Positions 373 to 20,122 of a stretch of DNA of 32,886 nucleotides are shown here, in pieces. Every line of letters starts with the position of its first letter. The first letter of the stretch is position 1. The notes beneath the pieces are model-generated. The model saw only the letters and a list, made by a program, of their open reading frames with translations, had not been told where the DNA came from and did no database searches. Location of the stretch: the NCBI GenBank assembly GCA_031181105.1, contig JAPSLD010000010.1, positions 1-32,886 of the forward strand, given 5' to 3'. This DNA comes from Isoptericola sp. Lineage in GTDB: Bacteria > Actinomycetota > Actinomycetes > Actinomycetales > Cellulomonadaceae. Made by a program: the position numbers and the translations under genes.

Positions 373-1149
373 CTACCCGACGCGTGGCCGGACGACCAGC
401 ACCTGCGCGACGGTGCCGAGCGGCCCGTGCTGGTCGTGCAGCACCGTGCTGCTCAGCCCGACGCCGGTCGGCCCGAACGAGACGGTCGTGTCGAAACCGA
501 GCCACTCGCTCTCCGGCAGCCGGTACAGGTGGGCGGCGAGGTCGAGGTTAGGGAAGACGACCTCGCGCGGGTCCCGGCGCACGGTCAGCCCGTTGGCGAC
601 GTCGAGCAGCCCGGCGGCGCGGGCGAGCGGGCTGACCTTCTCGTCCTCGACCAGCGGCACGTCGGTGCGGAGCCACGCCGTCGCGCGCCCGGGCTCGGCC
701 TGGTCCCGGCGGGCCTCGACCGTCGTGATGAAGCCGCCAGGCCAGTCCTTCGCGAGGTCGACCGGCGGGGTCTCCTCGGGCGCCGGGATCCGGGGAAGCG
801 GGTCGGCGGCGAACGCCGCGGTGTCGCCGGGGCGCGCGAGCCAGGCGCGCAGCGTGACGGCGCGCCGCCCGCCGCACGACACGGTCGCCTCGACCAGCTC
901 GACCCCCTTGCCGGGGCGCACGACCTGCACGTCGGTGTGCATGGTCTCCAGCCGGTAGGTGCCCCAGATGTCGTACGACAACCGCGTGACGACGAGGTCG
1001 TCCCGGCCGCGCTCGTCGCGGTCGACCTCGACCAGGTGCGCGAGCAGTCCCAGCGTCGGTGCGACGTGCTGCTCGTCGGTCCTCCAGGCGCCCGAGACGT
1101 GCTCGGTGGGCTCGAACGTCGTCGCGCCGGTGCGGCGGAAGTAGGCCAT
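373..1149 (-). CDS. Acyl-CoA thioesterase family protein (TesB-like double hotdog)
   Basis: 258-aa ORF MAYFRRTGATTFEPTEHVSGAWRTDEQHVAPTLGLLAHLVE...; thioesterase-like motifs such as FPNLDLAAHLYR..EWLGFDTTVSFGPTGVGLSSTVLHD; GGAG upstream of ATG. Confidence 0.75.
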   Translation of the reverse strand: MAYFRRTGATTFEPTEHVSGAWRTDEQHVAPTLGLLAHLVEVDRDERGRDDLVVTRLSYDIWGTYRLETMHTDVQVVRPGKGVELVEATVSCGGRRAVTLRAWLARPGDTAAFAADPLPRIPAPEETPPVDLAKDWPGGFITTVEARRDQAEPGRATAWLRTDVPLVEDEKVSPLARAAGLLDVANGLTVRRDPREVVFPNLDLAAHLYRLPESEWLGFDTTVSFGPTGVGLSSTVLHDQHGPLGTVAQVLVVRPRVG

Positions 1150-1224
1150 GGCTCTCCTCGTCGTGTCCGTGGGGTGGTGGACGCACCGCCGTGTCTACCA
1201 GGATCCGGCGACGAGGGCAGGAAA

Positions 1225-1289
1225 GAGCCCGCGGGCTGCAGGGTGACTCCTGCTGCCGTGCTGGACGAGGGCACGGCACCCGCGGGCTC
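1225..1289 (-). ncRNA. Perfect three-way-junction RNA element / terminator-like structure in the leader of the thioesterase gene
   Basis: P1 GAGCCCGCGGG/CCCGCGGGCTC (1225-1235/1279-1289), P2 TGCCGTGC/GCACGGCA (1254-1261/1271-1278), P3 GCAGG/CCTGC (1238-1242/1249-1253); minus strand continues CTCTTTCC. Confidence 0.6.
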
Positions 1290-1356
1290 CGGTGGTCGCG
1301 TGGGAATCGCAACCGGTCCACGCGCCTGGTGGCGCGAAGTCAGTCAGACGCGCGAC

Positions 1357-1395
1357 CTAGCGCGCGACCACCTCATGGGTCCGAAGAGTCTTCAC
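1357..1395 (-). CDS. Candidate leader peptide (uORF), VKTLRTHEVVAR, 12 codons + stop
   Basis: GTG AAG ACT CTT CGG ACC CAT GAG GTG GTC GCG CGC TAG on the minus strand, preceded by AGAAGGGAGGTGATCC (1416-1401), complementary at 15/16 positions to the 16S 3' end. Confidence 0.5.
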   Translation of the reverse strand: MKTLRTHEVVAR

Positions 1396-1428
1396 TGCTC
1401 GGATCACCTCCCTTCTCATGTGCCGACG

Positions 1429-1465
1429 ACGCTACGCCCGCCCGCGCTGCCGCGCCAAGGTTTTT
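1429..1465 (-). promoter_or_regulatory. Candidate sigma70-type promoter for the leader: AAAAACC-TTGGCG-N18-TAGCGT
   Basis: Minus strand: AAAAA 1465-1461, -35 TTGGCG 1458-1453, 18-nt spacer, -10 TAGCGT 1434-1429; predicted start about 1422, just before the extended SD. Confidence 0.5.
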
Positions 1466-1475
1466 CGCCCTCGGC

Positions 1476-2396
1476 TCAGCCGTCGCCGGTGGCGAGGAGG
1501 TGCGCCCACTCGGCCGGGTAGTCGTCGAGCCACTGGACCAGCGACCGGGCCGGCCTGCCGACGAGCCGGGGGACGTCGTCGGACACGTGCTCCAGCACGC
1601 CGGCGGCGATGGCCTCGTAGGACGAGACCCACCCCTGCACGACGTCGTCCTCGGCCCCGAGGTCCGCGCGCGAGGCGTACGCCTCCTCGACGGTCTGCGG
1701 CTCGTAGACGATCGTGCGCCCGGCGGCCTCGGACAGCAGGTGCGCGACCTCGTGCAGGGTCAGCGCCTCCGGTCCCGTCACCTCGTACGTGGCGCCGTCG
1801 TGGCGCCGCGGCTTCTCGTCGAGGATGACGGCGGTCGCGACGTCGGCGACGTCGTCGTGCGAGACCGACGCCACGCGCCCCTGGCCGGCGGGGCCGCGGA
1901 TGACGCCGTCCGGCCCGACGAACGTGGTCAGCGCGTGGTGGTAGACGTTGTCGCGCAGCACGGTCCAGCGCAGCCCCGAGGACCGCAGGTGCTCCTCGGT
2001 GTGCCAGTGGTGCCGTGCGAACGTGAACACGGCGTCGGGCGCCGCACCGACGAACGACGCGTACACGAGCCGTTCGACGCCGGCCGCGACGGCGGCGTCG
2101 ATCGCCGCGGTGTGCTGCTCGACCCGGTCCGCGGTCTCGGCCGCGCTCACGAGGAACGCCGTGCGCACGCCGTCGAACGCGCGCCGCATGCCCTCGGCGT
2201 CGTCGTACCCGCCGACGGCGACGACCTGGGACTCCGGCAGCGGGCGCCCGTCGTCGAGCCGCGGCACGTGGTCGGGGTTGCGCGTCACGAGCTTCTGCCG
2301 CGCTCCCTCGGCGGCCAGGCGGAACGCGAGCCGCGACCCCAGCCGCCCGGCGGCGCCCGTGACCGCGACCACCCCGTCGGCGGACCACCTCACCAT
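1476..2396 (-). CDS. NmrA-like / SDR family NAD(P)-binding oxidoreductase
   Basis: 306-aa ORF with N-terminal VAVTGAAGRLGSRLA Rossmann motif and NmrA-like architecture (GVERLVYASFVGAAPDAVFTFARHHWHTEEHLRSSGLRWTVLRDNVYH). Confidence 0.85.
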   Translation of the reverse strand: MVRWSADGVVAVTGAAGRLGSRLAFRLAAEGARQKLVTRNPDHVPRLDDGRPLPESQVVAVGGYDDAEGMRRAFDGVRTAFLVSAAETADRVEQHTAAIDAAVAAGVERLVYASFVGAAPDAVFTFARHHWHTEEHLRSSGLRWTVLRDNVYHHALTTFVGPDGVIRGPAGQGRVASVSHDDVADVATAVILDEKPRRHDGATYEVTGPEALTLHEVAHLLSEAAGRTIVYEPQTVEEAYASRADLGAEDDVVQGWVSSYEAIAAGVLEHVSDDVPRLVGRPARSLVQWLDDYPAEWAHLLATGDG

Positions 2397-19836: not shown

Positions 19837-19870
19837 CCACCTCACAACGCAACACGCCGCTCGAACCGCG

Positions 19871-20122
19871 ACGGGAGAGTCCGGCGGACCTGGCAGCAGG
19901 GCCGTCGGCGCCGAAGGAGCAAGCCCCTCCCCGGGAATCTCTCAGGCCCCCGTACCGTCGTGGCGAGGCAACTCTGGAAAGCGGCCCGTCCGACGTCGTA
20001 CGACGCCGGCGGGCCCACCGACGGTGCAAGTCGGCGCGCCCCGTCCAGGCGGACCGACAAATCTCTCAGGTCGACGTGCGACCCGGGCTCCCGCCCGGCG
20101 CGGTCCGATGACAGAGCGGGGA
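19871..20122 (+). ncRNA. Tandem glycine riboswitch (two aptamers)
   Basis: Aptamer I: ACGGGAGAGTCC...GCGCCGAAGGAGCAAGCCC...GGGAATCTCTCAGGCCC...CAACTCTGGAAAGC. Aptamer II: CCCACCGACGGTGCAAGTCGG...GACAAATCTCTCAGGT...GATGACAGAGCGGGG. Directly upstream of gcvP. Confidence 0.93.

Follow-up and report, generated by a model that had tools for sequence, protein, structure and literature searches.

A member of the Ms_IGR-5 RNA family with a conserved short ORF and a WhiB7-type promoter beside an acyl-CoA thioesterase gene

On the minus strand of the window (the whole 32,886-nucleotide stretch of Isoptericola sp. DNA analyzed here), an acyl-CoA thioesterase gene is preceded by a promoter, a 12-codon ORF, and a series of RNA hairpins. 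The initial annotation took these parts for a candidate ribosome-stalling attenuator of the thioesterase gene. The question raised by this locus is, then, whether the RNA serves the gene that happens to follow it or is a unit of its own.

Identity and surroundings of the element

An Rfam scan matched positions 1421–1218 to RF02471 (Ms_IGR-5) over model positions 1–184 of 184, with 67.8 bits where the gathering score is 45. With this full-length match above the curated cut-off, the element is a clear member of the family and the only copy in its genome. Ms_IGR-5 is already known to Rfam, without an assigned function, and the window supplies a new member. The parts of the element and its two neighbors are as follows.

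1218–1421, minus strand: Ms_IGR-5 RNA (RF02471), ~204 nt
1429–1466, minus strand: WhiB7/WblC-type promoter, GAAAAA-CCT-TGGCGC-N17-TAGCGT, 12/13 to the published WblC consensus
1401–1416, minus strand: extended Shine-Dalgarno (SD) sequence AGAAGGGAGGTGATCC
1357–1395, minus strand: 12-codon ORF, VKTLRTHEVVAR*
1379–1382, minus strand: GGAC, 5' strand of a probable pseudoknot (GGAC/GUCC and GGAU/AUCC covariation)
1363–1372, minus strand: 5' strand of P1, GGTGGTCGCG, within the ORF (comparison and fold)
1301–1356, minus strand: central region containing local hairpins; differs in length among relatives, some of which lack it
1291–1300, minus strand: 3' strand of P1, CGCGACCACC, adjoining the 3' domain (comparison and fold)
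1225–1289, minus strand: three-way junction, a terminator-like 3' domain (model match and fold)
1263–1266, minus strand: GUCC loop, 3' strand of the probable pseudoknot (covariation with the ORF tetramer)
373–1149, minus strand: acyl-CoA thioesterase gene (4HBT_3/4HBT_3C, Pfam), downstream neighbor outside the element
1476–2396, minus strand: NmrA-like gene (Pfam), upstream neighbor, conserved in the genus only

When the 204-nt RNA was folded, its minimum-energy structure (−108.9 kcal/mol; z = −5.4 versus 200 dinucleotide shuffles) included both the 10-nt P1 pairing and the three-way junction, the latter followed by CUCUUUCC on the minus strand, as the initial annotation had described. The other parts that it had listed were likewise present on the minus strand where it had placed them, i.e., the promoter (AAAAACC at 1465–1459, TTGGCG at 1458–1453, an 18-nt spacer, and TAGCGT at 1434–1429), the extended SD sequence, the ORF, and the perfect complementarity between the end of the ORF and 1300–1291.

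The RNA is widespread. Every one of the 18 genomes of the window's genus has an RF02471 match, as do 193 of 297 genomes sampled from the class; among mycobacterial genomes the count is 270 of 298, and in one Nocardioidaceae-like genus it is 147 of 150. The genera of the comparison genomes are judged from named loci and sequence likeness. There was usually one copy per genome, with at least two in a few genomes. Most of the 28 mycobacterial genomes without a match (e.g., G326, G331, and G377) still matched the genes that flank the RNA in M. chelonae, which suggests lineage-specific loss. The family has been validated by RNA-seq in S. lividans (PMC8079986) and goes under the name ncMSMEG15794c in M. 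smegmatis (PMC10454040). Elsewhere in the window, a glycine riboswitch aptamer (RF00504, 61.8 bits, cut-off 32) was found at 19862–19967 on the plus strand.

The genes around the RNA are far less constant. The NmrA-like gene upstream is retained through the window's genus, but the thioesterase gene lies directly behind the RNA in only 2 of the 18 genus genomes, namely the window's own and that of the close relative L036; in a third (L039) it is ~1 kb away, and in the remaining genomes it is replaced by other genes, mostly convergent. When 124 loci were examined, the next gene was convergent in 66 of the 103 that could be assessed and on the same strand in 37. The same-strand genes are mutually unrelated (an MFS transporter, a phosphoglycerate-mutase type, a 2OG oxygenase, and a solute-binding protein), and a convergent THAP4/nitrobindin-type protein is among the neighbors. 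Of 43 Nocardioidaceae loci examined, 26 have an MFS transporter gene behind the RNA on the same strand, 23 of them within ~420 nt, and operator-like GTTG/CAAC repeats precede the transporter in several Nocardioidaceae-like loci (L026, L032, L035, L063, L065, and L073). A cis leader of this drug exporter was considered and rejected, since these repeats, which look like an operator and a separate promoter, lie past the 3' domain of the RNA and the MFS neighbor is not conserved outside Nocardioidaceae. Because the downstream gene is not conserved across genomes, we regard the RNA as a unit of its own. At the window it has its own promoter, its own 3' domain, and nonconserved neighbors, and transcript ends have been mapped in other species; in S. 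avermitilis, Ms_IGR-5 is an independent sRNA transcript with mapped start and end (PMC8780764).

Convergent neighbors are nevertheless common, and the RNA might act in cis as an antisense transcript that overlaps the 3' end of the convergent gene and stabilizes or silences it. Such a model was proposed for ncRNA1 and MAB_0732c of M. abscessus, where ncRNA1 falls ~100-fold and MAB_0732c ~10-fold in a whiB7 mutant (PMC10727445). In M. chelonae, we found Ms_IGR-5 behind a WhiB7-type promoter, flanked by a class IV aminotransferase gene on one side and a convergent gene on the other; this gene order matches the one described for ncRNA1, which on this ground is probably an Ms_IGR-5 homologue. However, different families have different convergent genes and many loci, including the window, have none, and antisense action would leave the conserved ORF, P1, and the pseudoknot unexplained. 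We therefore consider antisense action unlikely.

The ORF and the pairings that enclose it

We compared the ORF across 390 distinct loci. In 388 of them there is an in-frame start with no stop before an invariant GAG codon, the start codon being TTG in 190 cases, ATG in 160, and GTG in 38, and in 386 of the 390 the stop falls exactly five codons past this GAG; the frame found in the window is thus kept across the class. In the other two frames, open starts numbered 27 and 0, and the stop was not fixed. The SD sequence in front is identical at 15 of 16 positions to the full complement of the 16S rRNA 3' tail, and its core GGAGGTG[AG]T is present in all 127 recognized loci. It is difficult to account for interchangeable start codons at one place and an unvarying stop unless the ORF is translated, and ribosome footprints on Ms_IGR-5 have been reported in M. 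abscessus and M. smegmatis (PMC4974804). Judged by this conservation, the ORF is almost certainly translated.

The encoded peptide is a different matter. Across the 390 loci, GAG GTG (Glu-Val) is invariant with almost no synonymous change, and the other residues vary (R/W/G, T/M/I, C/R/S/H). No conserved arrest motif or regulatory codon run was found across the ORF loci, and residues vary wherever the RNA allows, which argues against a sequence-specific stalling peptide. An Erm-type +X+ stalling motif was rejected because R-T-R occurs in many members but W-T-C in mycobacteria, and none of the papers searched for the ORF peptide sequences contained them. On comparative grounds, then, the ORF is constrained as RNA and for being translated, not as a peptide.

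What constrains the second half of the ORF is its pairing with the segment adjoining the 3' domain, GGTGGTCGCG:CGCGACCACC in the window. The 3' strand of this P1 helix was located via the neighboring stem of the 3' domain and an ACC anchor rather than via complementarity. Among 371 loci, 95.3% of cells were paired, compared to 89.8% after shuffling (maximum 90.4%). In 44 composites, which are mostly one per genus plus a few extra variants picked because they vary, 6 of the 10 pairs were changed on both sides, and the covariation score was 0.243 versus 0.135 ± 0.011 (0/500 shuffles). Sliding the P1 partner destroyed the covariation signal. The window's pair is replaced in mycobacteria by GGTGGCTACG:CGTAGCCACC, and further examples are GGTGACCATC:GATGGTCACC and GGTGTCCGTC:GACGGACACC. 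Tests inside single genera were underpowered, with too few changes for significance, and none was opposite on average. Both the ORF and the arms of P1 are therefore conserved across the class, and the comparison indicates that the end of the ORF pairs with the segment adjoining the 3' domain, with compensatory changes across genera.

Between the arms of P1, the central region ranges from a few nt to ~100 nt among relatives. In one sub-clade of the window's genus (L043 and L046–L052, around position 1510), it is gone altogether, leaving P1 as a short hairpin that encloses the stop codon, with a compensated change of its own (GGTCGCGGG:CCCGCGACC versus GGTCACGGG:CCCGTGACC). The competing central hairpins to which the initial annotation had drawn attention (1336–1318; 1303–1297) are present in the window but not conserved, and since this region can be lost while P1 is kept, they are not essential. 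What endures of that proposal is that ORF codons take part in a conserved RNA pairing, such that translation and folding must interact; the mutually exclusive hairpins do not.

A second contact probably links the ORF to the 3' domain, where GGAC (1382–1379) can pair with the GUCC loop (1266–1263) of the first hairpin. GUCC was found in the 3'-domain stretch of 318 of 322 usable GGAC loci, and none of these 322 carried AUCC alone. Conversely, 47 of 49 GGAU loci had AUCC and the other 2 GUCC, a G-U pair. A fold-based loop caller, for which at least one exception is a mis-called loop, gave 309 GUCC versus 3 AUCC for GGAC and 41 AUCC versus 4 GUCC for GGAU. The GGAU/AUCC version is found in Nocardioidaceae, and in the GGAU loci inspected (L053, L060, L065, and L073) the SD end stays GGTCC, so the change in the ORF tracks the loop and not the SD sequence. 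On the Nocardioidaceae-like tree, the ORF base changes at least five times, with two independent, well-supported comparisons, usually in the expected direction. The covariation is suggestive, as the independent changes are too few for significance, and we consider a pseudoknot probable as a physical contact. The window's minimum-energy fold also pairs the SD sequence with the 3' tail of the RNA; such tails vary among relatives, most of which have a 3' domain without a long U-tract.

With these constraints in hand, three other roles for the RNA can be weighed. Were it a small mRNA with the 12-residue peptide as its product, the strong SD sequence, the conserved frame and length, and the ribosome footprints (PMC4974804) would be accounted for; however, the invariant Glu-Val stems from an invariant GAGGTG, and the constraint follows base pairing, which makes this role quite improbable. 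We place even less weight on a ribosome or anti-SD decoy, in which the full-length SD sequence would titrate 30S subunits during drug stress and the ORF would only hold the ribosome; its extended and nearly invariant complementarity fits this idea, but the fixed stop codon and the covariation of P1 would not be needed, and one RNA species would need to reach extreme abundance. Least credible of all is the attenuator of the initial annotation, in which stalling on the ORF would alter termination or translation of the thioesterase gene and which we reject on gene order, for although an ORF, the pairing of its codons, and a terminator-like domain lie ~75 nt before the ATG on the same strand and L036 has the same neighbor, the downstream gene changes between genomes and in most lies on the other strand, the ORF is not conserved at the peptide level, and no terminator/anti-terminator switch is visible, the 3' strand of P1 ending before the outer stem of 1289–1225, which it adjoins without overlap.

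The promoter and its relation to whiB7

In S. coelicolor, promoters activated by WblC carry GAAAWY three bases upstream of TKGMNN, followed by a spacer of 16–19 (best 17–18) and TANNNT (PMC7157823), and in M. abscessus the WhiB7 sites show an AT-rich motif that lies 3 bp before the −35 (PMC10727445). The consensus with which the window promoter agrees at 12 of 13 positions is that of S. coelicolor. From this promoter, transcription is expected to start near 1422, a few nt upstream of the near-perfect SD sequence. Among 126 loci, 99 scored at least 11/13 versus 0.2 expected from dinucleotide shuffles, a score that comes partly from −35 and −10 elements common to any promoter; the WhiB7-specific part is the A-tract, whose columns are 64–92% A compared to 7–18% just upstream. 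In these loci the A-tract is restricted to the expected columns, and the spacing between the −10 and the SD sequence hardly varies.

The window's genome itself carries whiB7, encoding a protein with EPWGVWGG and RGRGRPRK, on another contig (G000:C248), and the promoter of this gene is comparable to that of Ms_IGR-5. The leader of that whiB7 gene (L004) is long, with an A-tract promoter, an ORF beginning MDTMNLVTMVNASSGHVPG..., and GC-rich inverted-repeat-like sequence before the gene. We also asked how often the RNA and the regulator occur together. Among the 297 class genomes, for which whiB7 presence was called from a bimodal score, the RNA was found in 188 of 247 genomes with whiB7 but in only 5 of 50 without it (Fisher p = 8e-19, counting genomes as independent and ignoring kinship), and both are jointly absent in several families of the class, some in the window's own order. 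As 59 of the 247 whiB7-bearing genomes had no RF02471 match, the WhiB7 response need not include the RNA. In S. coelicolor, WblC controls four independent intergenic ncRNAs (PMC7157823). Judged by its promoter and co-occurrence, Ms_IGR-5 would be under WhiB7 control in the window organism, and a link of the element to translation-inhibitor stress is plausible via this type of promoter.

A possible mode of action and its relation to known systems

Together, these results are best explained, with a probability that we put at roughly 0.6, by a stand-alone, WhiB7-controlled, translated Ms_IGR-5 RNA whose fold ribosomes would open. Comparison supplies the family membership, the conservation of the ORF and its frame, the covariation of P1, the promoter motif, the co-occurrence with whiB7, and the lack of a conserved downstream gene; from these we infer that the RNA depends on WhiB7 in this organism, that the pseudoknot physically forms, that the fold switches between open and closed forms, and that there is an output in trans. 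Unstressed cells would make little of the RNA, and under translation-inhibitor stress WhiB7 would raise it, the promoter placing its start just ahead of the SD sequence. In the absence of ribosomes, the second half of the ORF would be tied up by P1 with the stretch that immediately precedes the terminator-like 3' domain, and the GUCC loop of this domain would hold the GGAC of the ORF. A ribosome loaded on the ORF, whether running or stalling toward the stop, would have to open both of these contacts, and how far the RNA is open or closed would depend on run-off, stalling, or scarcity of ribosomes. By this switch, the RNA would report ribosome occupancy in translation-inhibitor stress. Once open, the RNA would present its 3' arm and GUCC loop for action in trans, or its stability would change; candidate outputs are thus a trans-pairing segment, protein binding, or altered stability, with the freed 3' arm and GUCC loop as candidate parts.

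More tentative, and in our judgment somewhat doubtful, is the bolder version of an "attenuator without a gene," in which ribosome occupancy, not the peptide, would open the pseudoknotted fold of a WhiB7-driven RNA and free a trans-acting segment. If true, Ms_IGR-5 would be a class-wide RNA sensor of ribosome stalling in actinomycetes. The family spans mycobacteria, Streptomyces-type genomes, Nocardioidaceae, and the window's genus, and it has been catalogued without a function and named in few of the papers searched. Under the stand-alone reading, the RNA would be translated, would fold around this ORF, and would be governed by the master regulator of intrinsic antibiotic resistance, which bears on how actinomycetes sense drug-stalled ribosomes. 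The locus also carries a caution, in that what looks like the leader of one particular gene can be an independent RNA next to a gene unrelated to it.

Several known systems share parts of this design. Translation-coupled attenuators (erm, ABC-F, and amino-acid leaders) likewise have a short ORF with codons engaged in RNA pairing. Unlike these, Ms_IGR-5 has no conserved cis-regulated gene and no conserved arrest motif or regulatory codon run, and the segment that pairs with its ORF overlaps neither a terminator nor the next SD sequence. The whiB7/wblC leader, described as subject to attenuation mediated by its upstream ORF (Lee 2022, as cited in PMC13236596), has the same promoter type, an upstream ORF, and a link to translation inhibitors; in the window's genome, however, whiB7 lies elsewhere and its ORF is different and much longer, which rules out Ms_IGR-5 as the whiB7 leader, and no conserved gene follows Ms_IGR-5. 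M. abscessus ncRNA1 is intergenic like Ms_IGR-5, with a WhiB7-type promoter and a convergent neighbor, but it was proposed to stabilize a neighboring mRNA (PMC10727445), unlike what we envisage here. Finally, the RF02471 model and the window element agree in being one family, intergenic, with their own promoter and a terminator-like end. Rfam treats it as a noncoding sRNA and pairs the SD region with the GGAC of the ORF, and its model is without P1, the probable pseudoknot, the ORF, and the WhiB7-type promoter, all of which we describe for the window element. On our best reading of the compared loci, what is new about Ms_IGR-5 would be this translated, translation-gated, and WhiB7-linked architecture.
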